IMG/VR virus record: IMGVR_UViG_3300034378_000175
Location: 1 to 45,999 of that record
Origin: a virus
Length of the DNA stretch: 45,999 nucleotides
Direction: 5' to 3' (one strand)
The notes below the pieces were generated by a model, which saw only the letters and a program-made list of their open reading frames with translations, was not told where the DNA came from and searched no databases. The position numbers and the translations under genes are program-made. This document shows, piece by piece, positions 1 to 45,999 of the stretch (position 1 is its first letter; every line of letters begins with the position of its first letter).

Positions 1-162
1 AATGTCGGTGAGATGTGGGAAAGTTCGAATGTCGGTGTGATGTGGGGAAGTTCGAAAGTCGGTGAGATGAGGGAAAGTTCGAATGTCGGTGTGATGAGGG
101 AAAGTTCGAATGTCGGTGTGATGAGGGAAAGTTCGAATGTCGGTGAGATGAGGGAAAGTTCG
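1..162 (+). repeat. Tandem 27-bp coding repeats, six units (left end)
   Basis: Six exact-length 27-bp units lie head to tail and in frame. Each codes for nine residues. They differ from each other by single substitutions (GTG/GAG, AGG/TGG, GAA/GGA, AAT/AAA codons). They continue the six units at 45836-45997, so the array was split by linearisation. Copy number in the real genome may differ because short-read assemblies collapse such arrays. Confidence 0.95.
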
Positions 163-294
163 AATATAAATATTTATTCTCCTGGTGTAAAATATAAAGT
201 TAATGAGAAAGGTATAGCTATAATTCGCTATAAGGATAATATAGAAATAGTTCATGCGAAAGGGAATGAGGTTAAATTAATTAAACAAAAATAA
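1..294 (+). CDS. Nonapeptide-repeat solenoid protein, C-terminal part (gene continues from the right end of the window)
   Basis: This is an open frame with no start of its own. Codons begin at base 1 and read six 9-residue repeats of the type NVGVMRESS, then a 43-residue non-repeat tail ending at the TAA at 292-294. The N-terminal part of the same protein is at 45461-45999. If the ends are joined with a 2-base overlap (the terminal aa), the frame is kept and the whole protein is about 276 aa with 12 repeats. Positions 1 (N/K), 4 (V/E), 6 (R/W) and 7 (E/G) of the repeat vary, and the other positions are nearly constant. A period of nine with alternating hydrophobic residues is what a beta-solenoid would show. 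Similar solenoid proteins with a conserved N-terminal domain occur in many phages, with unknown function. The tail may cap the solenoid. Confidence 0.85.
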   Translation, partial: NVGEMWESSNVGVMWGSSKVGEMRESSNVGVMRESSNVGVMRESSNVGEMRESSNINIYSPGVKYKVNEKGIAIIRYKDNIEIVHAKGNEVKLIKQK

Positions 295-894: not shown

Positions 895-3592
895 GCAACA
901 TTATAACCTAGAGGAATATATAACTAAGCAGACTGGCTTGACTTGGAAATCAGTCGGAGCTTGGAAGGATCTACAGGAATGTCCTTTCTGTGGTGGGCAT
1001 GCGTGTTTTCGTCTTGCTCCAGATGGGCAATCAGCTCATTGCTTTCAGTGCCCTCGTCATTATGATATTTTAAAATTCCGAATGGCTTGGGAGAATATAA
1101 CTTATCAAGAGACCCTTTCTCGTTTTAAAAAGGATCTGGGAATCAAGGGAGAGGATGCCCGAAGTGTTGAGTGGCAGATCATCAAGGAATCGGCCTCGGC
1201 CCATTTGGTCGAGACTCTTTTCACGACTATGACAAAGTTCCAATTCCGAGGCGAGTTCCACACTCCGCTGGAATATCTGCTGAGCTTTCGGAAGCATTCC
1301 CTTGAGGCTATTCTTCACTTTCAGGTCGGATTCCATTCCGGGAGCCTTATGACTTATCTTGAGAGCAAAGGCTGGAAGCGGGATGTCCTCAAATCTATTG
1401 GCTTGGTAAATGATAAGGGGCTATGCTTTGTGCCGGAGAATTGCTTCACTTATCCGGCGATTATGAATGGCCAAATTGACCATTTTAGATTCAAGGACCC
1501 GAATAAGATCAAGAGATTCCAGATGCCTTCGAAATATCGGAGCAATAAATTGTATTTCTATAATCAGGATGCTATCTCTGGGTCCAAGGAAATCTTTTTA
1601 ACTGAGGGAGAGGACGATTGCATCTCGCTCTGGCAGGCCGGAGTCCATTCGATAGCCACAACCGGCGGGATGCAACTGAATCAGGTCCGGTATTTGAATA
1701 AATTCGATTTCGAGACTATCTTCTTAGTCTTTGATAATGATACCGCAGGGGAGCGGGATACCGAGGTCTTTGTCAAGATGACCTCGAGTAATAATGTATT
1801 TATAATACCTCTGCCCAGCAATAAATCCGATATAGATGAGGTTCTCCGGGAATCTGAGGATAAGAGAAAGAAAATCGAGGAGCTCAGAGAACAGGCCTCA
1901 TTCCCATCGATTGAGTTCAAGACAAATATTCGGCAGAAGTCGGACGGGTATTTTGCTATGAGGAAGGATTCTGAGAAGCGACTTACAAATTGGACTCTGA
2001 GCCTGCAGGCCATCTGCCAGTCCAAGGATGAGGATAAGATATACTGGCGGGTCCTCTTTAAGTCTGAGAAAGGGGAGACTAATATCGAGATCCCGGCTGA
2101 GGCTTTCTCGAATACCTCTTTATTAAGGAATTATTTGTTATCTAATATACCCGGGCAGATTCTTTATTTTAAGGGAAGCGACTCGGATTTGAGCGAGCTG
2201 ATCCATTTCCTTTCAGCTAACTCAAACCCGAAGAATATAATCGAAATGCACTGCGTTGGGGATACCGAATATGGATTTCTGGCCGAGAATCTTGTCCTGA
2301 CTCCGAATAATGAAATCAAGCCACTGAATAATACCTATCTGACTCTGGATGAGAACACTTCGATCAAGATTGTGCCTTTGGTTCGGAGAGGCGGAAATAA
2401 GTCTGAGATTCCTTACTATCACCTCAATGAACCGGTTGGCGGGATTTTCAAGTTCAAGAAAAAACTCTATGATTTGATGATCCAGAACCGGAATCTTAAG
2501 ATCGCTCTGGCTATTGGTTGGGCCAAGGCGACTCTCTGGTCATCTATGTTTTATGAACAAAAGAAATTCTTCCCCTTGCTTTGCCTACATGGGAAATATC
2601 AATGCGGAAAGACGGTTCTAAGTAACTGGCTCATGTCCATCCTTGGAATCGAAAATTGCAATCCCGAGATGCTTTCGGATAAGGGGACCACAGAGGTCGG
2701 CTTGGCAAGGAAGCTTTCTTTCTATTCTTCCCTGCCTGTCTTTGCAGATGATTACCGCTCAGATGACACTGGGCTTAAATTTCATACTTTCATGCGAGGA
2801 GTTTATGACCGGACCTCTCCAACTAAAGGATTAAGAAATGAGGACGGAGTCCGTAGGGTAATCATTCGGGGATGCCTGATGTTAACAGGCGAGCACTCCC
2901 CTACGGATCCTGCTCTTTTAAATAGGATGGTTTCCATTGAGCTCAGCAGAAAAGAAAGGAATGATATTTATTTCAAGGACATTGTGAGACTTCAGAAATA
3001 CTTTTCCTGCATCGGTCTGGATTGGCTTAAGAGCCGGCAGTCTGAGTTTCCGCACTTTTTCAAGAATTTCGAAAAGTTTGAGGACCAGTTTACTAAGGAT
3101 TTCGATGACCCGAGGCAGGCCTCGGTTTTTGCTGTAGTGGTAGCCTCAGCCATTTCCGAAGGCCTCTGGGAGCCTGAGGAGATTATCGATTTCGCCAAGC
3201 ATATATGCAAGTCAGATCTTGCCGAAAGGCGGTCAGAGGATACTATAAATACATTATGGGAAGCTGTGGAAATCCTTTTTGCCCGGAATGAGCTTGTAGA
3301 TCAGGAACTCTGCGTAGAAGCCCTAAATTCCCGCATTCTTGTGCATTTGCCGGGTCTTTTAGGCCGAATAAGGAGTTCTCCTGCCTGTAGACATTATACG
3401 CTCCCAAATAAGCGAGAAATCGTAAAATTGCTTAAACAAGAGCCTTATCTGGGAGGCTATGAAAGTATCCGAGTAAATGGGAAGGTCGGCTGGCGCTGGA
3501 TTATAAAGCTGGATAGCCCTGAGCTACCTGATGCCCTTAAGAATATTTCGGACCGATTCGATCCGGGGCTTGGAGGGTCTGATGCATTTTAA
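872..3592 (+). CDS. Fused DNA primase-helicase
   Basis: This is a 906-aa protein if started at ATG 872; ATG 854 or TTG 845 in the same frame are alternatives. The N-terminus has a CHC2-like zinc ribbon (CPFCGG at about residue 37 and CFQCP at about 58). A TOPRIM domain follows, with the acidic motif LTEGEDD near 243 and FDNDTAGE near 288. The C-terminal half is a P-loop ATPase with Walker A GKYQCGKT near 574 and an acidic Walker B-like strand VFADDYR near 624. After that comes a LTGEHSPTDPALLNR stretch near 672, typical of a sensor/arginine-finger region in phage D5-like or DUF927-like helicases. It should prime and unwind DNA at the phage fork. No phage DNA polymerase is visible, so it probably recruits the host enzyme. 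Confidence 0.92.
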   Translation: MNLIERIKQHYNLEEYITKQTGLTWKSVGAWKDLQECPFCGGHACFRLAPDGQSAHCFQCPRHYDILKFRMAWENITYQETLSRFKKDLGIKGEDARSVEWQIIKESASAHLVETLFTTMTKFQFRGEFHTPLEYLLSFRKHSLEAILHFQVGFHSGSLMTYLESKGWKRDVLKSIGLVNDKGLCFVPENCFTYPAIMNGQIDHFRFKDPNKIKRFQMPSKYRSNKLYFYNQDAISGSKEIFLTEGEDDCISLWQAGVHSIATTGGMQLNQVRYLNKFDFETIFLVFDNDTAGERDTEVFVKMTSSNNVFIIPLPSNKSDIDEVLRESEDKRKKIEELREQASFPSIEFKTNIRQKSDGYFAMRKDSEKRLTNWTLSLQAICQSKDEDKIYWRVLFKSEKGETNIEIPAEAFSNTSLLRNYLLSNIPGQILYFKGSDSDLSELIHFLSANSNPKNIIEMHCVGDTEYGFLAENLVLTPNNEIKPLNNTYLTLDENTSIKIVPLVRRGGNKSEIPYYHLNEPVGGIFKFKKKLYDLMIQNRNLKIALAIGWAKATLWSSMFYEQKKFFPLLCLHGKYQCGKTVLSNWLMSILGIENCNPEMLSDKGTTEVGLARKLSFYSSLPVFADDYRSDDTGLKFHTFMRGVYDRTSPTKGLRNEDGVRRVIIRGCLMLTGEHSPTDPALLNRMVSIELSRKERNDIYFKDIVRLQKYFSCIGLDWLKSRQSEFPHFFKNFEKFEDQFTKDFDDPRQASVFAVVVASAISEGLWEPEEIIDFAKHICKSDLAERRSEDTINTLWEAVEILFARNELVDQELCVEALNSRILVHLPGLLGRIRSSPACRHYTLPNKREIVKLLKQEPYLGGYESIRVNGKVGWRWIIKLDSPELPDALKNISDRFDPGLGGSDAF

Positions 3593-4144: not shown

Positions 4145-4345
4145 GGAAGAGTGGAATAATTTGTTAGTCCGTATTTTAGTTCTCGCATGCGACCTTATGA
4201 TTCAGGCACTCGTGACTGTGACGCCGAACAAATACAAATAAATAAATAATTAAATAAATAAATATAAATAAATGAATCTATTCTGTAACATTAACTGTAA
4301 CGTAGTAACGATATATAATAAATATAAATTATAATAAAAAGATTT
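4070..4345. other. Candidate replication origin: iteron-like repeats plus AT-rich segment
   Basis: This is about 200 bases without a gene plus the end of the HNH gene. It contains GTGAC/GTCAC pentamers five times within about 150 bases, including the inverted pair CGTGACAG (4076-4083) and CTGTCACG (4111-4118). It contains GTAAC four times (4107, 4285, 4297, 4305). The perfect palindrome TCGCATGCGA is at 4183-4192. A run of aaataaataaat-type sequence fills about 4228-4275. Repeats next to an easily melted stretch, just after the primase-helicase, is the usual look of a phage or plasmid origin. This is an inference from layout only. Confidence 0.4.
4291..4319 (+). promoter_or_regulatory. Possible sigma70 promoter
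   Basis: TTAACT at 4291-4296 and TATAAT at 4314-4319 are separated by 17 bases. The -10 box is perfect and the -35 box matches 4 of 6. It would start transcription near 4326, just before the genes at 4349 and 4500. AT-richness makes chance matches likely here. Confidence 0.45.
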
Positions 4346-4348
4346 CAA

Positions 4349-4534
4349 ATGCATAGAATCTGTTATAAATGCTTGTATTCAATATCTTGCGCCATTCCGG
4401 GATGGTTTCGTTGTAGGAAACGAAAATACAAGGTTGTTTCTAAGGCTCAGGAAGAGGCTTGCCAAGCTTTTAAAGAAGCAAAGGACTGGAGGAAGGTTAA
4501 TGGACTGGAGATCAGCGAAGGTTATAGCGGATAA
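4349..4534 (+). CDS. Small Cys-rich protein of the C-x2-C-x-(Y/F)-S type
   Basis: This 61-aa protein has RICYKCLYS at the N-terminus, a third cysteine in ISCAIPGWFRC, and a later EACQAF. The same order of a CxxC pair, an aromatic-Ser step, a middle Cys and a final Ala-Cys-aromatic occurs in the genes at 10699 and 11874, so these form a small family within this genome. It is probably a zinc-stabilised mini-domain of unknown role. The 3' end overlaps the nucleotidyltransferase start at 4500. No clear ribosome-binding site is seen before ATG 4349, and the strongest support is the family resemblance. Confidence 0.65.
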   Translation: MHRICYKCLYSISCAIPGWFRCRKRKYKVVSKAQEEACQAFKEAKDWRKVNGLEISEGYSG

Positions 4535-8569: not shown

Positions 8570-8832
8570 AAAATCACATAACCAAAAAACAAATAGAATG
8601 TCCCCACGCTTTTATTAGTGGTTTATGTCGATTTCCAATCGTTGATGGTAAAATATGGGTATGTGCTAATTGTGGAATTCTTAAGATACAAGGAATTAAC
8701 TTCTATTATAATAATTTAGAAACATTAGAAAATGCTTTACCCTTATACAAAAAACGACATAAATCATTAATTAAATTAGTAGAACATCAAATTGAATTAT
8801 ACAGAAATAATTATCTTGATTGTAAGAGGTAA
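8566..8832 (+). CDS. Hypothetical zinc-finger-like protein, 88 aa
   Basis: It starts at an ATGA overlap. ECPHAFISGLC near residues 12-22 and WVCANCGIL near 32-40 give four cysteines in zinc-ribbon order (a His at position 14 is also near). A basic helical C-terminal half follows. It is probably a nucleic-acid-binding accessory protein, but the function is not recognised. Confidence 0.65.
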   Translation: MKNHITKKQIECPHAFISGLCRFPIVDGKIWVCANCGILKIQGINFYYNNLETLENALPLYKKRHKSLIKLVEHQIELYRNNYLDCKR

Positions 8833-8833
8833 A

Positions 8834-8899
8834 ATGAATAAATACAATTTGATTAACGGGGTTTATAACTTAGTTCCGTCAGAAGAAATAAAGAAATAG
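8834..8899 (+). CDS. Possible 21-aa peptide
   Basis: This is a short frame starting with ATG 8834 behind AAGAGGT and ending at TAG 8897. The product would be MNKYNLINGVYNLVPSEEI plus two lysines. It fills the gap between two genes, and AGGGGG for the next gene follows directly. Small phage peptides of this size exist, but there is no further support. Confidence 0.3.
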   Translation: MNKYNLINGVYNLVPSEEIKK

Positions 8900-8908
8900 G
8901 GGGATTCT

Positions 8909-9334
8909 ATGAAACTATTGTTTATATTGATTTTGTTTGTTTCGGTAGGGTTTGGAGAATTTAATGGAGATGTATTTTTTGGTGATATTATTTGTTCAAC
9001 TAAAACAATCCAATGTAGATTATGTAATGAAACAACAACCTTTACCAATATAACTGGTGCTTATATTATTGAATGCCCAAAGGATTGGTGTGCTTTTATG
9101 TACAGAGAACATTGGCATAGGAAATGCTACAAAGATTTTTTGGATTGGCTTATTGAACGTTATCAAAGAATGAAAGACCTTGAAATATTTATTTATCTTG
9201 AAACCCTAGATGATTGGAAGAAAACACCAAAAAGAACTGTTGACGGTAAAGATGTCTGGACTTTCGGAGCAGTAGAAAAATCATCAACAACAAAGGAGGT
9301 TAGTAATGGAAAAAAAAGATTTAACCACAATTGA
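8909..9334 (+). CDS. Exported cysteine-rich protein, 141 aa
   Basis: The N-terminus (MKLLFILILFVSVGFGEF) is a clean Sec signal peptide with a cut site near residue 16. The mature part has cysteines in pairs (IICSTKTIQCRLC, IIECPKDWC, HRKC), which outside the cytoplasm would form disulfides, or could bind metal if it stays inside. It lies among cytoplasmic early genes, so it may act on the host envelope, for example in superinfection exclusion. That role is inferred only from export and location. The last codons overlap the next gene by 29 bases. Confidence 0.7.
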   Translation: MKLLFILILFVSVGFGEFNGDVFFGDIICSTKTIQCRLCNETTTFTNITGAYIIECPKDWCAFMYREHWHRKCYKDFLDWLIERYQRMKDLEIFIYLETLDDWKKTPKRTVDGKDVWTFGAVEKSSTTKEVSNGKKRFNHN

Positions 9335-10244
9335 TGAGCAAGGTTTGTCTATTGGAGGGATCAAAGAACGTTTGGATATGCATTCTAAATTAATGGAATT
9401 AGTACCTGAGAGTCTGAAATATTATTCTGTTCAATATTTAGATCAGGGGAAAATTAAAAATCAATCTTGTTTTGATAGGACAGAAGCTGAAGCAATATGT
9501 AAAAGATTAGGTAAGGCAAATAGGCAATTCAAGTTAATTGAAGGAACCAAAGCAGCGGGAGTTAATATGTTTGCTCGCTCTGTGGGATGTGAAGAAGTAC
9601 CCGAATTAACAGTTTCTACCAATAATTTAGAGGAAGTTTCTCGAAGATTGGCAGAAGGCAAGCCAGCAGTTCTTTTTGTCTATGAAAAACGAGCAGTTAG
9701 AGGGAAGGATGGAAAGCCTATTTTTGGATCAGCTTGTGGCTCTTCTTATATCTCAGGACAATATCTAAATTCACTCGACAAAGTTTTCCATTCGGTTCTT
9801 GGTAAAGTTGAAACTAGAGCCCAAGCTCGAGCAGCCTCGAAATGGTTGGGAGTCCCTCTAGTTATTGCTGAAGATTTTGAAGCAGCAGAAACAACCAATG
9901 AGACTGAGCTTAAAACAGTGGTGGATGGGTCAGCTACCGTTAAAGTAGATAAGCCTACAACGACTTCTCCGGAGGAGAGGAATTCAAGCGCTCAGGCACT
10001 TTTGGACGAAATCCATGGCATTCCAGAGCTGGTGGAGCAGTTAAATTCGACCAAGGATGCTAAGGAGAAAAAGGAACTCAGCAAGCAGATCGAAAAAGCA
10101 AAGGATGATAAAAAGAAATTGGTAGCCAAAATGAAGAAAGACTTGGGATTAAAAGGCTCTCTAAAAGATGCAGCAGAGGAAATATATCAAAGATTCATGA
10201 AGGAATTAGAACAGATTAAGGCCGAGAAATCAGAAGAGATTTAA
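9306..10244 (+). CDS. Unknown 312-aa protein with an annealing-protein-like motif
   Basis: It is preceded by AAGGAGG. The N-terminal 200 residues are a globular, mostly helical domain. The stretch KVETRAQARAASKWLGVPL near residues 174-192 resembles the ETRAxxRAL...LG step of Rad52/RecT/DUF1071-type single-strand annealing proteins, usually found near the C-terminal end of their core. The last 90 residues are a Lys/Glu-rich coiled-coil-like tail. An annealing or recombination role would fit the RecB/Cas4-like and ERCC4 nucleases, but the match is short and I would not assign it firmly. It is the largest gene in the accessory region. Confidence 0.75.
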   Translation: MEKKDLTTIDEQGLSIGGIKERLDMHSKLMELVPESLKYYSVQYLDQGKIKNQSCFDRTEAEAICKRLGKANRQFKLIEGTKAAGVNMFARSVGCEEVPELTVSTNNLEEVSRRLAEGKPAVLFVYEKRAVRGKDGKPIFGSACGSSYISGQYLNSLDKVFHSVLGKVETRAQARAASKWLGVPLVIAEDFEAAETTNETELKTVVDGSATVKVDKPTTTSPEERNSSAQALLDEIHGIPELVEQLNSTKDAKEKKELSKQIEKAKDDKKKLVAKMKKDLGLKGSLKDAAEEIYQRFMKELEQIKAEKSEEI

Positions 10245-10250
10245 AAATAT

Positions 10251-10328
10251 GGCGGGTCGCACCCTGCAACCTCTGAGAACCACTTAACCGCTAAGCCTTT
10301 CAGAGCTTGCCGAATCATGCGACCTGCC
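10251..10328 (+). ncRNA. Long imperfect hairpin RNA element
   Basis: The 78-base element folds on itself. An outer stem pairs GGCGGGTCGCA (10251-10261) with TGCGACCTGCC (10318-10328): 11 pairs, one of them G-U. A middle stem pairs GCAACCTCTGA (10266-10276) with TCAGAGCTTGC (10300-10310): 10 of 11. An apical CTTA/TAAG (10283-10286 and 10292-10295) closes a 5-base loop. There is no U-tract, so it is not a standard terminator. It begins 6 bases after a stop codon and ends 28 bases before the next start. It may protect, process or regulate the mRNA. It uses GC-rich pairs in an AT-rich region, which suggests selection. Confidence 0.6.
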
Positions 10329-10355
10329 TTGAAATTATTTTCAGGAGGATTGAAT

Positions 10356-10553
10356 ATGGTAGTAGAACACAGATGCGATATTTGTAGGAAAAAAATTAAA
10401 AGAAATTTTGTAGGGGAAAGATGGAATCCCCATCTCGACAAATTTCAGATCGAGGTTATAGTTGCAAAAAATGATGTTTGGAATGAAGGGGATCTCTGTC
10501 TCACATGCTTGAAGCGAATTGTTAGGACTGGCAAAGAAATCGAGAAAAAATGA
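10356..10553 (+). CDS. Small zinc-ribbon protein, 65 aa
   Basis: ATG 10356 is chosen for its strong AGGAGG; the frame is open upstream only through the hairpin element. HRCDICRKKI near residues 5-14 and DLCLTCLKRI near 47-56 form two CxxC pairs, a typical treble-clef or ribbon arrangement. The middle is a beta-like segment. The last bases overlap the next gene by ATGA. The function is unknown. Confidence 0.75.
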   Translation: MVVEHRCDICRKKIKRNFVGERWNPHLDKFQIEVIVAKNDVWNEGDLCLTCLKRIVRTGKEIEKK

Positions 10554-10702
10554 AATGTCTCGGAAATTCAGAGAGCTTGGTTTTGAAATATCTATTCGGG
10601 ATAGTTGAAGCTCTGATCGGAATTTTTATGGGCTATGCTTGGATCCTCTGGATAATCATCATTATATGGGTCTTGTACAAAGTCATTAAGGAATCAACAT
10701 GA
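10550..10702 (+). CDS. Small membrane protein, 50 aa
   Basis: It starts at an ATGA overlap and stops at another. The protein has one long hydrophobic stretch (IFMGYAWILWIIIIIWVLY, about residues 25-43) followed by a short basic end, so it is a single-pass inner-membrane protein. Perfect overlaps on both sides support real translation. It may be an accessory lysis or exclusion peptide, with no direct evidence. Confidence 0.65.
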   Translation: MKCLGNSESLVLKYLFGIVEALIGIFMGYAWILWIIIIIWVLYKVIKEST

Positions 10703-10878
10703 AAAAGATTTGCAAGAATTGTTTGTTCTCAGTTTTTAGTCGATTATCGGGCAAGCTTATCTGCTTTCATCATAAATTGAATCGTATTCCCGACTCAGGG
10801 CACTATGTCTGGAAGAATAAAAAGGCCTGTAAATATTGGGAATGGGAAAGGAGCGAGGATCATGCAAAGTCTAAATAA
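10699..10878 (+). CDS. Small Cys-rich protein of the C-x2-C-x-F-S type
   Basis: This is a 59-aa product with ATGA start overlap. MKKICKNCLFS at the N-terminus, a middle cysteine (LICFHHK) and a KACKYWEW end give the same order as the proteins at 4349 and 11874. It is probably a zinc-stabilised mini-domain. Its last bases overlap the start of the next gene, which uses AAGGAGCGAGG inside this frame as its ribosome-binding site. Confidence 0.7.
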   Translation: MKKICKNCLFSVFSRLSGKLICFHHKLNRIPDSGHYVWKNKKACKYWEWERSEDHAKSK

Positions 10879-11221
10879 AGAGGAACTCATTCAGGCGCTT
10901 CAAGAGGAAGAGGGGCTTATCGATTCGATAGGAGTCTTTCATAACGAATCGCTTGTTCCGGGAGAGATGAGGCTTATCTGTGGGAGCAAAGCTCATAAGA
11001 TTTTTGGGGCTACAGTCGGAAAAGAAACTCCGGCTAAGCCCAAGATTGAAGCCCAATATCAAAAAGAAAAGTTTGAGACTCTTGAATTCAAATTTTTAAA
11101 ATCAGTATTGCGTTTCAGTAATAGAATGAAAGAGGCAAGTGAAGAATTGCAAGAAGCAACTCTAAAAATTAAAAATATCTTGGAGGGTAACAATGCAGAT
11201 AAAAAAGACGGCAAAAGTTAA
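10862..11221 (+). CDS. Hypothetical protein, 119 aa
   Basis: ATG 10862 is preferred because AAGGAGCGAGG lies in front; the frame is open upstream to 10805. The protein has an acidic helical start, a central segment with one cysteine, and a C-terminal coiled-coil-like helix (about residues 70-108). The 3' end overlaps the next gene by 29 bases. No family is recognised. Confidence 0.65.
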   Translation: MQSLNKEELIQALQEEEGLIDSIGVFHNESLVPGEMRLICGSKAHKIFGATVGKETPAKPKIEAQYQKEKFETLEFKFLKSVLRFSNRMKEASEELQEATLKIKNILEGNNADKKDGKS

Positions 11222-12877: not shown

Positions 12878-12891
12878 ATTCTTCAAACCTC

Positions 12892-12921
12892 TTGACAAAC
12901 CTAGCGCCTCTGTGGTATAAT
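12892..12921 (+). promoter_or_regulatory. Strong sigma70-type promoter for the packaging and head operon
   Basis: TTGACA (12892-12897) and TATAAT (12916-12921) match the consensus fully, with an 18-base spacer. It lies 15 bases after a stop codon and points at the terminase operon. A consensus host-type promoter means the phage can transcribe this block with host RNA polymerase alone. Confidence 0.85.
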
Positions 12922-12927
12922 AGTCTA

Positions 12928-13195
12928 TGCTACTCTACTATTTTTTATTATTTCTTTCCTCCTCTACGCTCAGGCAAAAAACGTTAAGAATAAATTTTTT
13001 TTTATTTGCACTGATTAGTCATTCATCGTCGGAATATATCTCTAAAGAGGGGAGATCGTCGGAAGCCCCTTGAATTAAGTTAACATAATGTCTGTTATCG
13101 GAACCATATCGACAGAAAAAGTTACTTTTTATTTTTGTAAAAGCTAGAGTTACTTATTCTCCCGAGGGAGTCGCATAAAAGTTATTGAGGGTAAA
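12928..13195 (+). promoter_or_regulatory. Long untranslated leader, about 270 bases
   Basis: No gene is seen here. The RNA would contain two copies of ATCGTCGGAA flanking a small hairpin (about 13024-13064) and several T-runs (for example about 13000-13010). A late CCCGAGGGAG hairpin-like stretch lies near 13162, and a GAGGG ribosome-binding sequence stands before ATG 13196. A leader this long after a consensus promoter suggests regulation at the RNA level, but no known riboswitch is recognised. Confidence 0.45.
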
Positions 13196-23762: not shown

Positions 23763-23791
23763 TTGACAAATCTTTAAAATTATGTTATAAA
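23763..23791 (+). promoter_or_regulatory. Strong promoter of the capsid gene
   Basis: TTGACA (23763-23768) and TATAAA (23786-23791) have a 17-base spacer, plus a TGT extended element right before the -10. The 110-base leader that follows contains the perfect hairpin GTTTCA-TTTC-TGAAAC (23829-23844). A separate promoter gives the capsid gene more RNA than the operon before it. Confidence 0.8.
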
Positions 23792-23910
23792 TAAGACAGC
23801 AAATCAATTCAAAGAAGAATTAGTCAAAGTTTCATTTCTGAAACGAAAGTAACCAAACTTCTGGAAAAATGAATTGAATTTATTTTATTCAGAGGTTTTT
23901 TTATTTTCAA

Positions 23911-26514
23911 ATGAAGTTTTTTTTCCATTCCGCAAGACTTATAGAGGCAAAAGATAAATCAGGAAAAGACTGGGAAGTTGTCTTGATACAGGCTGGGAAG
24001 TCTTTAAATAATAAGATCTACCCAGCCGAGGTTCTTAAGAAGGCTGTCAAGCTTTTTAATAATGTCAAGGCATTTGCCTACGAGTTTCCGGGAAAGATAT
24101 TCAACCATTTTCCTGAGAATGCTCGGAAAGTTGTCCCTGAAGGTTGCGCTCGAAATGTTGTTGGTTGGTATGATAATCCAAGATATGCAAGCTTTAAGGA
24201 TAGCGAAGGGAAAACCCATCAGGGAATCGTAGCCAGATTCCATGTATCCGAAGGAGCTCAGTGGCTTAGGAAACTTCTTAAAGATGCATGGCAATATGGT
24301 AAACATTCTTTGCTGGGTTTTTCCATTGATGGCAGTGGTGATGTAAGCGAGACCACTGTGAATGGGAAAAGAACTTTAATGGTAAATTCAATTAATAGTA
24401 TCGATGAAGTGACACTGGTCACTCATCCAGCAGCAGGCGGACAGTTTAAGAGACTGCTCGCATCTAAAAATTTCATAGAGGAGGAAGAAGCGATGAATTT
24501 TTTAAAAGAGTTGTATAATTGGGTAAAGAATTTGAAGGAAGGACTAATCGAAGGAGTGGACCCAGAGCATATTACTGAGGAACAGGAATTTTCATTCATA
24601 AAGTTTTTAGTAGAGAATGAGAAATTTCCACCGAAAGAGAAACTCGAGGAAGCTGGTCCATTTGTCTCAGCAACGATTGATCGTTTAATCGAAATGCTGA
24701 AAGGGAATAAACAGGCAGAGGCACTGAAGCTCCTGACGGCACTAAAAGAGAAATTGACAAAATATGGGTATCCGAGTGTGGCAAAATACTATGGCTATCC
24801 GACTCAAGCTCAGCAGGAAGAAGAGAAAAAGAGACAGGCCGAAGCCGAAGCGAAAAAAACGAAGGATGAAGAGGCAAAGAAAGTAAAAGAGGAAGAGGAA
24901 AGAAGGAAACAGCTTAGCGAGATTGAGAAAGTGAAAGAAGATGTTAAAAAGATGCAGGAAGACACACTGAGAGCAAATTGCAGAGCACTCTTGGCCGAAT
25001 CTCTCGCATCAAGTGATCTACCTCAGCCCGTTAAAGATAAGGTTTCAAAACTATTTGAAGGCAAAATATTCACGAAGGAAGAACTCGAAAAAGCAATTGA
25101 TCTGGAAAAAGAAGTTCTTGGAAAGCTTTCTGAGAGCGGAGATATAAAAGGACTCGGACAGAGAAAAGAAAGCATCGAAGTGATAAAGGATTCAGCCGAT
25201 AAGATTCAGGTTGCTATGGATAAACTGATTGATGACGAGGCCGAAGTACCAGAGAAAATGAAAGATATCCCGGCATTTACAAGTCTAAAAGAAGCCTACA
25301 GAACCTACCATCCGGATGATCCGACAATTTCAGGTAATATTGATAGAAGGAAACACGCTCAGAGACTGACCGAAGCAATAACTACTGGTGACTTCACTTA
25401 TGCACTGGGAACCTCGATGACACGAAAACTCGTCAAAGCATTTAAGAAAGTAGCATTTGACTTTGCTAATATAGTCACAGAGACAGGGATAGATAATTTC
25501 AAACAGCAAGAGAGAGTGAAATGGGGCGGGTATTCAACACTTCCGACAATAACTGAGGACGCAGCCTATACCGATCTATACGAACCGAGAGACGAGGAAG
25601 CTACCTATACAGCAGGGACCAAAGGCGGTTATGTATCAGTCTCCCGAAGAGCGATCAAAAATGACGACCTCGGACTATTAAAGAGAATCCCGACATTAGT
25701 TGGAACAGCAGCAAAAAGAACCCTTTCCAGAGATGTCTCAGGTTTACTGACAGCGAATGGAACCTATACCCCTACGAATTCGACAGTCTTCTCAACCCTG
25801 TTTGGAAACTATTCAACCAGAGCGCTCAACTATGATAATTTCGTTTGGGCAGATATTGCATTAAGAGGAATGAAGGAAAGAGGCTCAGCACAGGATGCAG
25901 GAACTGCAACAGCCGCAAGCTCAACGACCTTGACCGATAGCTCAAAATCATGGACAGTCGATGCGTTTATTGGATACTATGTCAGGATAGTTTATGGAAC
26001 GGGAGCAGGACAAGTTGTAGCAATCACAGATAATGATGCGACTTCAGTGACTGTAGCTGCTTGGACCACGACACCAGATACGACTTCAAGATATGAAATT
26101 TCAACAGCTCAGAATGACGATGAAGTCATCGGATTTGCACCTCGCTATTTAGTTTATGGTTTACAGTTACAGAGAATTATTAATGCATTACAGAGAAGCG
26201 ATAGAAGATATGATAATGCCGAGAACGAAGACAACTTCTTTAAGAGACAGAATGTGACCCCGATATTCAATCCTTACTTAACTGGAAGCACGACCCAATA
26301 TTACTGGTACCTCATTGCGGGCAAGGATCAGACAGATATAATCGAGATCGGATATGTCGACAATCAGAGAACCCCTACACTCGTGATTCAAGACCAACCA
26401 GCACTCGGCGAAGTATTCACAAATGACAAACTGAGATGGAAGATCCGATATGAATACGGCTTGGCAATAATCGAGAACAAAGCGATCATAGCAAACGAAG
26501 CGACAACTGTATAA
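23911..26514 (+). CDS. Prohead protease - scaffold - major capsid protein fusion
   Basis: This is an 867-aa protein. Residues 1-195 are a prohead protease (herpesvirus-assemblin-like fold): DWEVVLIQAGKSLNNKIYP at the start, KHSLLGFSIDGSG near 130-142 with the likely Ser, and VTLVTHPAAGGQF near 169-181. Residues about 200-445 are a scaffold, with a Lys/Glu/Ala-rich coiled coil near 290-355. From about 455 to the end is an HK97-type capsid subunit (LTEAITTGDF, ERVKWGGYSTLP, YVSVSRRAIKNDD). A 69-residue module at 662-730 is shared with tail proteins. The protease should cut the chain during head assembly. Such triple fusions are known but uncommon. Confidence 0.88.
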   Translation: MKFFFHSARLIEAKDKSGKDWEVVLIQAGKSLNNKIYPAEVLKKAVKLFNNVKAFAYEFPGKIFNHFPENARKVVPEGCARNVVGWYDNPRYASFKDSEGKTHQGIVARFHVSEGAQWLRKLLKDAWQYGKHSLLGFSIDGSGDVSETTVNGKRTLMVNSINSIDEVTLVTHPAAGGQFKRLLASKNFIEEEEAMNFLKELYNWVKNLKEGLIEGVDPEHITEEQEFSFIKFLVENEKFPPKEKLEEAGPFVSATIDRLIEMLKGNKQAEALKLLTALKEKLTKYGYPSVAKYYGYPTQAQQEEEKKRQAEAEAKKTKDEEAKKVKEEEERRKQLSEIEKVKEDVKKMQEDTLRANCRALLAESLASSDLPQPVKDKVSKLFEGKIFTKEELEKAIDLEKEVLGKLSESGDIKGLGQRKESIEVIKDSADKIQVAMDKLIDDEAEVPEKMKDIPAFTSLKEAYRTYHPDDPTISGNIDRRKHAQRLTEAITTGDFTYALGTSMTRKLVKAFKKVAFDFANIVTETGIDNFKQQERVKWGGYSTLPTITEDAAYTDLYEPRDEEATYTAGTKGGYVSVSRRAIKNDDLGLLKRIPTLVGTAAKRTLSRDVSGLLTANGTYTPTNSTVFSTLFGNYSTRALNYDNFVWADIALRGMKERGSAQDAGTATAASSTTLTDSSKSWTVDAFIGYYVRIVYGTGAGQVVAITDNDATSVTVAAWTTTPDTTSRYEISTAQNDDEVIGFAPRYLVYGLQLQRIINALQRSDRRYDNAENEDNFFKRQNVTPIFNPYLTGSTTQYYWYLIAGKDQTDIIEIGYVDNQRTPTLVIQDQPALGEVFTNDKLRWKIRYEYGLAIIENKAIIANEATTV
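25894..26100 (+). repeat. Shared 70-residue module, copy in the capsid protein
   Basis: Residues 662-730 begin DAGTATAASSTTLTDSSKSW, contain IVYGTGAGQVVAI, and end TTSRYEI. Clearly related modules occur in the tail tube protein (two) and in a tail-tip protein. Placed within the capsid domain, it looks like an inserted surface-exposed beta domain. Confidence 0.85.
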
Positions 26515-42684: not shown

Positions 42685-42734
42685 AGAGGCTATCAATTAC
42701 TCTTTGCTTTCTCAGTTGGTAGCCTCTTTTTTTT
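42685..42734 (+). terminator. Strong rho-independent terminator ending the late operon
   Basis: AGAGGCTATCAA (42685-42696) pairs with TTGGTAGCCTCT (42716-42727), 12 pairs with one wobble, directly followed by seven T. It closes the tail and lysis transcript. Confidence 0.95.
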
Positions 42735-42781
42735 ATATCCCCCGACGGAAAAGCCTCTCCTCGGATTTCTTTCCCAAGCCC

Positions 42782-42852: not shown

Positions 42853-43032
42853 ATGCAGACTCAGAAAACCTCGAAAATCGAATCCACCTTCATCCTAAAC
42901 AATTTATGCGTATGTTGCGGAAGAGAACTTGCGCATCCCAATAAAGGAAAGCCAGTCTACTGTTTGGATTGCGCTATAAGAATGAAGCCTGTGAAATTGA
43001 TTCGAGTAGATAATTTAAAGAAAGAATTCTAA
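42853..43032 (+). CDS. Small zinc-ribbon protein, 59 aa
   Basis: ATG 42853 follows GGGGAGGTGATAA. LCVCCGRELAHP near residues 18-29 and VYCLDCAIR near 37-45 form two CxxC pairs, a zinc ribbon. It is basic at the C-terminus. Position right after a promoter suggests a regulatory protein, but this is inferred. A hairpin element follows its stop codon directly. Confidence 0.75.
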   Translation: MQTQKTSKIESTFILNNLCVCCGRELAHPNKGKPVYCLDCAIRMKPVKLIRVDNLKKEF

Positions 43033-43082
43033 GGCTTTCACTCCGCTTCTGGATCGGGAGCGGAGATGAGCGCCTAAGCTCA
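43033..43082 (+). ncRNA. Structured RNA element A
   Basis: Directly after the stop codon. GGCTTTCACTC is followed by the hairpin CTCCGCT/AGCGGAG (43041-43047 and 43059-43065), then GAGATGAG, then the hairpin TGAGC/GCTCA (43067-43071 and 43078-43082). Elements B and C have related parts. No U-tract, so not a terminator. Confidence 0.6.
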
Positions 43083-43099: not shown

Positions 43100-43549
43100 A
43101 TGAGTAAGAATCCTGAAACTAATCTTATAATCAATCAGAAGTATTTAACTAAGGCAGGCGATCCCGTGATATTCTTAGGGGAGATCCCAGACGGCTTTAA
43201 AATCAAGGTAGTAGCCACAGGACACGAGGTTGAAGTGAAGAAGGATTACAAATTCTACCCTTGGAATGGCGAGAAAGTAAATGGGACAGCCAAGAATCTC
43301 ATGAAATCCTCGAAAAGTGGCCGTAAAAAGACGGAGAAGAAACCCAAGCTGGCTCACAAGATCGATAAATATTTATTCCTCGGGAAATATACCGTGAAAG
43401 AGATCGCTGAAAAGATCAAAAGCGAGCCTGAGGCCAAAGGAAAGGATCTGGAGGCTAATGTTCATGCTCGGCTTGTCGGATATCGAAGGAAGGGAATCCC
43501 GATCCAGAAAAGTGACAGCGGTAAGATAAAAGTAGTTCTTAAAGCCTAA
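43100..43549 (+). CDS. Possible DNA-binding regulator, 149 aa
   Basis: ATG 43100 follows AGGAAGGTGGTGAT. The N-terminal half is a small beta domain (LTKAGDPVIFLGEIPDGFKI, VVATGHEVEVK). After a Lys/Ser linker, the C-terminal 65 residues look like a winged helix (KIDKYLFLGKYTVKEIAEKI, then a basic recognition-like helix ARLVGYRRKG). It could be a transcription or antitermination regulator of the neighbouring promoters. Both this gene and the one before it are followed by related hairpins. The role is inferred. Confidence 0.65.
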   Translation: MSKNPETNLIINQKYLTKAGDPVIFLGEIPDGFKIKVVATGHEVEVKKDYKFYPWNGEKVNGTAKNLMKSSKSGRKKTEKKPKLAHKIDKYLFLGKYTVKEIAEKIKSEPEAKGKDLEANVHARLVGYRRKGIPIQKSDSGKIKVVLKA

Positions 43550-43550
43550 G

Positions 43551-43760
43551 GGCTTTCACTCGGCGCTTCTCCATGGAGTGCCGAGATGAGATTCCGGGAG
43601 CAGGCAAGGAAACTCTTTTCAAGGATCCCAGATCCTCTGAGTCTGCGCCTTGCCTCTCCCTCACAACTATAAGGATTTGGTCCTGTCTGCTCCGGCATGA
43701 AAGCCGTCGGGCAGACAGAGATGAAATTCTCGACGGAGATTATGATGTTCAAAATTTTTT
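43551..43760 (+). ncRNA. Structured RNA elements B and C
   Basis: Non-coding. Element B begins 2 bases after a stop codon with the same GGCTTTCACTC as element A. It has the stem CTCGGC/GCCGAG (43559-43564 and 43580-43585) and then GAGATGAGATTC. Element C has the stem CTGTCTGC/GCAGACAG (43683-43690 and 43711-43718) with an inner CGGC/GCCG hairpin, then GAGATGAAATTC. The 66-codon frame at 43573 overlaps both and is not believed. Confidence 0.6.
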
Positions 43761-43769
43761 CTTGGATAC

Positions 43770-43798
43770 TTGACAAGGATATTTTTAAGATGTAAAAT
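43770..43798 (+). promoter_or_regulatory. Strong sigma70-type promoter of the early region
   Basis: TTGACA (43770-43775, perfect) and TAAAAT (43793-43798) have a 17-base spacer. Transcription would start near 43805 and run into the leader RNA and the early genes. Confidence 0.85.
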
Positions 43799-43863
43799 AT
43801 GTTATAGAATTTTGAATTAATAAGAGGTTTCATGAAATCCCAAGATATAAAACAATCCATAAC

Positions 43864-43903
43864 AGACAGAAATGCTTGCAAGCGATTCTGTCTATTTTTA
43901 TTT
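43864..43903 (+). terminator. Terminator-like hairpin 1
   Basis: AGACAGAA (43864-43871) pairs with TTCTGTCT (43886-43893), with an inner GCTTGCAAGC hairpin in the loop, followed by ATTTTTATTT. Confidence 0.8.
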
Positions 43904-43912
43904 ATGGGATTC

Positions 43913-43971
43913 AAAGGCGGTAGAGGGATTGTCCCGAAAGGGTTGTCTTGGGCTACCGCCTTTAATTTTTC
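43913..43971 (+). terminator. Terminator-like hairpin 2
   Basis: AAAGGCGGTAG (43913-43923) pairs perfectly with CTACCGCCTTT (43953-43963), 11 pairs, with an inner CCC-GAAA-GGG hairpin, followed by AATTTTTC. Confidence 0.88.
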
Positions 43972-43986
43972 TATTGGGAGGCGTCT

Positions 43987-44181
43987 ATGTTTCTTGGGAA
44001 TAGCTATGAAGAATTAAGGGAGCTTGTCGATCAATGGAATAAGGTTCTTTATACAGTATTCACGGGCAGATCTTGGCAGAAAGATAAGCAGGAATACGAT
44101 AAGAAGCGCAGAGACGAATCCCTGCATGCCGATTTTATCGCAGACACAGAAATGGAATTAAAGAAGGAGAATGGAGAATGA
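43987..44181 (+). CDS. Hypothetical early protein, 64 aa
   Basis: ATG 43987 follows TTGGGAGGCGT. It is a charged helical protein (SYEELRELVDQWNKVL, then a Lys/Glu end) without cysteines or membrane segments. It is the first gene after the double-terminator leader. The next gene starts at an ATGA overlap. Confidence 0.65.
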   Translation: MFLGNSYEELRELVDQWNKVLYTVFTGRSWQKDKQEYDKKRRDESLHADFIADTEMELKKENGE

Positions 44182-44961: not shown

Positions 44962-45450
44962 ATGCCCCGTCAGAAAGGAATAGACAAACTTAAGCTCGAT
45001 TACCAAATCTTAATCGATTCGAGGGAGCAGCATCCTTGGAGATTTTCTCGGTCCATTGAGAAGGCCCTACCCGCAGGGGATTATTCGATTGCCTATCAAA
45101 TCCCTGAGAGACTCTTAACCTATGAAAATATTATCGCAGTCGAAAGGAAGTCTGATGTCGGAGAGCTCTATTCGGCCACAGGCTCAGAGCGAGAGCGCTT
45201 TGAGAACGAACTCCAGAAGCTCTCAAGACTGCAGTATTCTTTTGTTATTTGCGAGTTTACTTTGATTGATATACTAAATGATGCCCCGCCGGGAAAACTC
45301 GAGCCTCAGGCAGTTTTTGGCAGTATCCATTCTTGGATTATTCGATATGGAGTACAGTTTATATTCGCAGGGAATAGGCAGAATGCTCGAGGCTCGGCTT
45401 TGAAGCTTTTTGAATTTTATTTTAAGTATAAGATTTTAGGAGTAAAATAA
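44962..45450 (+). CDS. ERCC4/XPF-type nuclease
   Basis: This 162-aa protein follows AAAGGAAAG. ILIDSREQHPW near residues 16-26, LPAGDYSIAY near 36-45 and IIAVERKSDVGEL near 57-69 are the three ordered signature parts of the ERCC4 nuclease domain (Asp, Asp, then the ERKxxD core). The second half (LQYSFVICEFTLID, GSIHSWIIRYGVQFIF) matches the rest of the fold. It cuts branched or flapped DNA, probably for recombination or replication-fork processing. Confidence 0.9.
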   Translation: MPRQKGIDKLKLDYQILIDSREQHPWRFSRSIEKALPAGDYSIAYQIPERLLTYENIIAVERKSDVGELYSATGSERERFENELQKLSRLQYSFVICEFTLIDILNDAPPGKLEPQAVFGSIHSWIIRYGVQFIFAGNRQNARGSALKLFEFYFKYKILGVK

Positions 45451-45460
45451 GGAGGATAAT

Positions 45461-45999
45461 ATGTGTCAGTTTTTTAGTTGCATAGCGACAAAAGATGGTA
45501 GAGTATTTTGGTCTAGCAAAAGTCAATCACATGAAGATATTAAAAAAGAGTTTAATATCAAAGATTGTGTAACAAGTCATTTTAAAGAGAATATTGTTCC
45601 TATTGAAATTTTGTCACCAGGTGATATTTTTAGTAAAGATTTCTCAAAATGGAAACTTAATTTTGATGGAGCAGAAAGACCTAGTTGGTGGAACAAAAAA
45701 ATAGAAAAGAAATGTTTTGACGCTCTTGCTGAATGTTATGAAATGGCTATTCTAGATGGCGTAGAAATAGAAGAATTAAAAGATAGAAATATTCATTTAA
45801 TGCGAAATACAAAAATAAAAAGAATGATTAACTGTAATGTCGGTGTGATGAGGGGAAGTTCGAATGTCGGTGTGATGAGGGAAAGTTCGAAAGTCGGTGA
45901 GATGAGGGGAAGTTCGAAAGTCGGTGTGATGAGGGGAAGTTCGAATGTCGGTGTGATGAGGGAAAGTTCGAATGTCGGTGTGATGTGGGGAAGTTCGAA
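45461..45999 (+). CDS. Nonapeptide-repeat solenoid protein, N-terminal part (continues at position 1)
   Basis: ATG 45461 follows AAGGAGG. Residues 1-125 are a conserved-looking domain: MCQFFSCIATKDGRVFWSS, SHEDIKKEFNIKD near residues 23-35, VPIEILSPGDIF near 46-57 and RPSWWNKKIEK near 72-82. The same opening and order occur in a phage protein family with period-nine beta-solenoids. Six repeats follow, and the frame then leaves the window with two leftover bases (aa). The rest is at 1-294. The function is unknown. Confidence 0.85.
   Translation, partial: MCQFFSCIATKDGRVFWSSKSQSHEDIKKEFNIKDCVTSHFKENIVPIEILSPGDIFSKDFSKWKLNFDGAERPSWWNKKIEKKCFDALAECYEMAILDGVEIEELKDRNIHLMRNTKIKRMINCNVGVMRGSSNVGVMRESSKVGEMRGSSKVGVMRGSSNVGVMRESSNVGVMWGSS
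45836..45999 (+). repeat. Tandem 27-bp coding repeats, six units (right end)
   Basis: Six in-frame units at 45836-45997, then two bases of the next. The units differ by single bases from each other and from those at 1-162. Confidence 0.95.

Follow-up and report, generated by a model that had tools for sequence, protein, structure and literature searches.

A candidate conditional terminator pair behind a strong promoter at the late/early junction of a phage genome

In the window, the whole 45,999-base stretch of viral DNA analysed here, a strong promoter (P43770) is followed by two terminators (T1 and T2) at the junction of the late and early regions, and the RNA just upstream is more structured than any other in the window. 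We read this arrangement as a conditional terminator pair, a proposal that we regard as evenly balanced between right and wrong: RNAs of ~97 and ~166 nt would be made by default, and read-through would be needed for the genes downstream. The promoter, the terminators, the gene order, the stability of T1 and the structured upstream RNA are established from the DNA sequence. Overall, gene switches of this kind are familiar from viruses; what is unusual here is how heavily the RNA upstream is folded.

Gene order and relatives

Every gene identified in the window lies on the plus strand. From the window start, the order runs from a primase and HNH nucleases through terminase, portal, head and tail genes to an amidase and a holin-like gene near 42.6 kb. 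The late (lysis) operon is closed by terminator T0 (42685-42735, plus strand), which has the top plus-strand stem score, 28. Beyond it, a weak candidate promoter, P42782 (42782-42810, plus strand; TTGATT-17-TAAAAT, 9/12), may serve a two-gene unit composed of zf62 (42853-43032, plus strand), which encodes a small CxxC zinc-finger-like protein, and p153 (43100-43549, plus strand; the "43100 protein"), which lies just upstream of P43770 and has no family match. The first gene downstream of T1 and T2 is orf64 (43987-44181, plus strand; Shine-Dalgarno GGGAGG at 43976-43981), and an ERCC4-type nuclease gene begins at 44962, on the same strand.

A tandem repeat of one kind occupies both ends of the window (1-165 and 45835-45999), so that the record probably represents a circular or permuted genome that was opened within the repeat; on that reading, the genes past 43987 run on into the primase region at the window start. 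GC skew, used to look for a replication origin, was positive along the whole window and gave no signal.

No close relative of the phage turned up in the collections searched. Among its named relatives, the Microcystis phage Mae-JY22 comes closest by capsid and portal (~31-32%). Capsid alignment reached 19 loci, with best segments 27-35% identical, and neither the terminase nor the capsid alignment found any in the genome-contig collection. Scanning the viral-contig collection with the ERCC4 protein returned only L003 and L004 (33-34%), and nothing in that collection matched the 44444 protein, p153 or the primase. Three proteins compared with 24 whole records (L001-L004 and L006-L025) likewise found none, and p153 and orf64 yielded no relative in the collections searched.

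With the leader as query, blastn for near matches among phage records gave nothing useful; with 11-base words, a search of 50,697 phage records returned one weak match (E 0.1) and no lambdoid one; plasmids gave one weak match (E 0.4); and the same 24 whole records held only short terminator-like matches (3/24). Two viral contigs (L001 and L002) matched a pattern of the T2 arms and were rejected as ordinary short-loop terminators in other contexts.

The promoter and the two terminators

P43770 (43770-43798, plus strand) consists of TTGACA at 43770-43775, a 17-base spacer and TAAAAT at 43793-43798, with a predicted start near 43805. It scores 11/12 and is rare in the window, which bears out the promoter proposed in an earlier note on this DNA. 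Plus-strand sites of at least 11/12 number 3 (12892, 23128 and 43770), as compared with 0.53 expected under a first-order random model, by a score that assumes the sigma70 consensus and may not suit the phage's host. The best evidence that P43770 is real is positional. Three of the 13 plus-strand TTGACA sequences have a -10 box matching at 5 or 6 of 6 bases at a spacing of 16-18 (12892, 23763 and 43770), and all three occur in non-coding gaps, which total 3,318 of the 45,999 bases when gaps are taken as the spaces between ORFs accepted as genes in a hand-picked list. By that hand-picked list, too, none of the 18 gaps of at least 60 bases is longer than that at 43550-43986 (437 bases). A -10-like TAGAAT at 43805-43810, among the first transcribed bases, where a pause element would be expected under control of the lambda pR' type, was spotted by eye, in a region that is A/T-rich. 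On the minus strand, a 122-codon frame (43546-43914) covers most of the gap; its codon score is near wrong-frame values, and we discarded it as probably due to chance.

The same note had placed two strong hairpins with T-tracts after the promoter, and positions, stem scores and U-tracts agree with this. T1 (43865-43903, plus strand) is formed by a stem-loop at 43865-43892 (-11.7 kcal/mol) and the U-tract TATTTTTATTT, and T2 (43913-43974, plus strand) by a stem-loop at 43913-43963, with 11 perfect outer pairs, and the U-tract TTTAATTTTTC. The two occupy the leader ahead of orf64, whose start codon follows the T2 tract by only about 15 bases. T2 has a stem score of 26, the third on the plus strand, and T1 a score of 20. 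Run alike on the window and on random sequence, and counting stems within genes too, the score gave 4 plus-strand matches of at least 24 in the window vs 0.45 expected, and 13 of at least 20 vs 2.6 expected. In a folding scan, the 46-nt core of T2 (-22.2 kcal/mol) was the lowest in energy among 41 plus-strand matches. Both terminators are missing from a simple consensus terminator listing, because the loop and stem rules of that tool are narrow.

Folding was modelled with RNAfold, in which pseudoknots, proteins and ligands lie outside the model. The RNA from 43805 to 43985 had a z-score of -3.47 (0/200 shuffles folded as well), and that from 43805 to 43910 a z-score of -2.55 (3/200). Pairing of T1 was 0.999 in all seven modelled transcripts, with starts at 43805, 43545 or 43080, and pairing of T2 was 0.925-0.948 in the three that reach it. 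The earlier note had also pointed to a 7-bp pairing that encloses the first hairpin and might compete with it. This helix exists in the model (5' arm 43836-43842, 3' arm 43905-43911, plus strand), with pairing of 0.86-0.93 in four modelled RNAs extending past T1. The idea of competition finds no support, since the helix is nested around T1 and forms together with it, using bases beyond the T1 end point; the best energy was -49.4 with the helix, T1 or both forced. Nor does the model support an attenuator or riboswitch built on mutually exclusive hairpins, T1 pairing being constant, the enclosing helix nested and no simple alternative fold seen.

The note's two broader options, a short RNA or controlled read-through, both fit the anatomy. 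If the product were the RNA itself, P43770 would yield large amounts of a small regulatory RNA, about 97-166 nt long, and promoter and terminators do bracket a short RNA devoid of a convincing gene. We consider this distinctly improbable: an RNA of T1 length would be mostly weakly folded A/U-rich leader plus terminator, the next gene follows directly, and Rfam 15 returned nothing at or above the gathering score across the whole window. Between 42660 and 44460, it gave only rli60 (27.8 bits, where 60 are needed) and SurA (21.1 bits, where 100 are needed).

An open frame across the terminators

One frame of 61 codons (43832-44017, plus strand), preceded by a GAGG Shine-Dalgarno sequence, spans both T1 and T2 and ends inside orf64. 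Its codon usage is unlike that of the phage's genes: of 144 true gene windows, 141 have a higher score and 3 a lower one, and its score is mid-range among wrong-frame windows (371/720 higher). The measure is weak for short genes, since zf62, an accepted small gene, scores no better (-0.091 vs -0.065 for the frame). No match to the frame was found in PHROGs, Pfam or phage proteins. It is a doubtful gene, probably not encoding a protein and possibly a translated leader, so that the earlier description of the region as holding no believable gene stands for the most part, with this one GAGG-led frame as its exception.

Such a frame invites the explanation that ribosomes translating it open T1 and T2, as in the pyrBI leader; a translation-coupled attenuator of the pyrBI type is named in PMC4824070. 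As in that type, an open frame crosses a terminator, and here it spans both and overlaps the orf64 start; a frame at 43832 would stay open by chance in just 2.6% of randomised sequences. Unlike that type, however, the frame lacks gene-like codon usage. In addition, T1 starts 33 nt past the start codon, a distance at which, according to PMC4824070, a terminator retains most of its efficiency unless there is a pause, and the enclosing helix covers the bases just past the start codon. Translation-coupled attenuation is thus, in our assessment, very improbable.

Conditional termination at the junction

In the conditional reading that we favour, P43770, as a sigma70-type promoter, would start an RNA near 43805 that meets T1 and T2 before orf64. 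Most transcripts would by default stop at T1, with a length of about 97 nt, or at T2, with one of about 166 nt, and the downstream genes, including those for the ERCC4-type nuclease (44962) and the primase, would be transcribed only on read-through; if P43770 serves orf64 onward, polymerases must pass two strong terminators. We infer that termination is efficient and that read-through is regulated, not merely leaky, either through an antitermination factor of the phage, for which p153 (also suggested in the earlier note) and the folded RNA at 43545-43745 are the candidates, or through a host factor. Lying at the boundary of the late and early regions, the pair would also act as an insulator, as T1 of Tn916 does, shielding the early genes from the late and zf62-p153 transcripts.

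Plain insulation with leak would dispense with a regulator: T1 and T2 would stop the upstream transcripts, and P43770 transcripts that leak through would feed the early genes. The pair does follow the zf62-p153 unit where late genes give way to early ones, and neither an alternative fold nor an antiterminator family was found. A pure insulator, however, should stand ahead of the promoter that drives the protected genes rather than behind it, and the output of P43770 should drop strongly across two consecutive terminators, which leads us to think this explanation unlikely, if a serious competitor. The early genes could also be transcribed from weaker promoter candidates after T2, at 44073 and 44188, in which case read-through would be unnecessary; this counts against conditional termination. 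A promoter scan from T2 to 45999 listed no site scoring above 9/12, which, like the short distance between the T2 tract and orf64, counts in favour of conditional termination.

Phage lambda controls its late genes through the promoter pR', which makes a short leader RNA, 6S, ending at the terminator tR' unless the antiterminator Q acts, and the Q gene sits just upstream of its promoter. The present arrangement resembles pR'-tR' in its strong promoter, its short gene-free RNA with a terminator within about 200 bases and its apparent need for read-through downstream, and the uncharacterised p153 gene, just upstream of P43770, is placed like Q. It differs in that the genes downstream here include replication genes, not late ones, and that there are two terminators. 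PMC4604602 describes the pR' pause elements and tR'. A Q-family protein was likewise not found: p153 and zf62 had no antiterminator match in Pfam, PHROGs or NCBIfam, a scan that covered part of the remaining window. The C-terminal half of p153 was modelled as winged-helix-like, in a single-sequence prediction of mean pLDDT 60, and the model had no match in the PDB at E below 0.001.

If termination at T1 and T2 is regulated, early expression would be controlled mainly at this pair, and a search for a new antitermination factor could well start here; if neither regulated termination nor an RNA factor holds, it is a routine terminator pair.

The folded RNA upstream

No other RNA in the window is as structured as the segment 43545-43745, which the earlier note had passed over. 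On the plus strand it folds to -95.4 kcal/mol (z = -7.3; 0/200 shuffles as low), and on the opposite strand its z-score is -3.3, a strand bias that points to function as RNA. When 1,528 windows of 160 bases, taken from both strands, were compared with a correction for composition, 43561-43720 (plus strand) ranked first, and nine more of the top 30 structured windows fell between 42961 and 44020.

Three long hairpins make up the segment: element B (43549-43594, plus strand), directly after the p153 stop codon; a middle hairpin (43596-43660, plus strand) that adjoins it; and hairpin C (43672-43730, plus strand), just upstream of P43770. B is a diverged copy of element A (43031-43076, plus strand), which directly follows the zf62 stop codon and precedes p153, so that A and B flank the p153 gene, each after a stop codon. 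They have in common CTTTCACTC ... GAG-A-TGAG with a bulged A, and their inner stems differ by paired changes (CTCCGC/GCGGAG against CTCGGC/GCCGAG). The A/B pattern occurs twice in the window vs 0.05 times expected. From their sequence and folding, these structures may be processing sites, 3' stabilisers, protein-binding sites or a cis antiterminator.

The last of these is one form of the conditional reading: 43545-43745 would belong to a new family of cis-acting RNA antiterminators of the put/canT type, such that transcripts from upstream pass T1 and T2 and those from P43770 stop as short RNA, the outputs being split by start site. PMC9378689 describes the HK022 put RNA, two adjoining stem-loops in about 70 nt of nascent RNA that make RNA polymerase resist terminators in cis, and here, too, adjoining long hairpins (B and the middle one) stand ahead of terminators before early genes. 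For Tn916, a conjugative element, PMC11658703 reports an insulating terminator T1 and an antiterminator, canT, an orientation-specific RNA that overrides terminators in cis and whose function was shown by experiment; the likeness is that structured RNA precedes an insulating terminator at a junction from which a downstream operon is entered. The location directly upstream of the terminators and the strand difference in z-score agree with such a role. Compared with put, however, our phage has three longer hairpins over about 200 nt, upstream of P43770, whereas put itself is located after the early promoter on which it acts; and no useful sequence match was found in any phage record, including a nucleotide search of 50,697 records in a set that may lack HK022 itself. 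Compared with canT, the element here is known from strand-specific structure and position alone, and the same picture would be expected from sites of RNase processing or from stabilisers of mRNA 3' ends. We therefore hold this form to be improbable. Should the folded RNA turn out to be the factor, the short list of antiterminators that consist of RNA alone would grow by one; PMC11658703 names put, EAR and canT.

Outside this phage, the strict A/B pattern was found nowhere (0). A looser one matched at 9 places, and 1/9, in contig L039, folds into a like hairpin (0/1000 shuffles of the variable part do as well). When the model was based on only A and B, L039 scored 15.8 bits (E 0.3) and ranked below three other pattern matches, so that its kinship to A and B is not established; an E of 3e-10 from another model was discounted as circular, L039 itself having been part of that one. 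The L039 hairpin (2247-2295, minus strand) has the A/B shape and stands between a gene that looks capsid-like by eye and the next gene. L039 is an otherwise unrelated phage contig, with a GroEL-like gene at 8624-11140 that seems, by eye, to carry an intein-like insertion.

Other strong promoters in the window

A promoter-hairpin-U-tract layout like that at 43770, also missed by the earlier note, occurs at 23763-23910 (plus strand), where TTGACA-17-TATAAA precedes the capsid gene at 23911. The leader of P23763 has a z-score of -4.56, and a long hairpin leads into a U-tract immediately ahead of that gene; being A/T-rich, with its U-tract partly paired in the model, this hairpin is a weaker terminator candidate. 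The third promoter, at 12892, has an unstructured leader (z = +1.07) and lacks the layout, which is thus found at two of the three best promoters (43770 and 23763). Its recurrence before the capsid gene counts for conditional termination at 43770, and its absence at 12892 counts against it.

The region around 12892 has features of its own (12878-13195): a 12/12 promoter, TTGACA-18-TATAAT, and a 270-base leader with ATCGTCGGAA repeats that, lying just before the terminase region, are possibly a packaging or operator site. Another long A/T-rich gap, at 4145-4433, holds AAATAAATA-like repeats and a promoter-like site, TTAACT-17-TATAAT.
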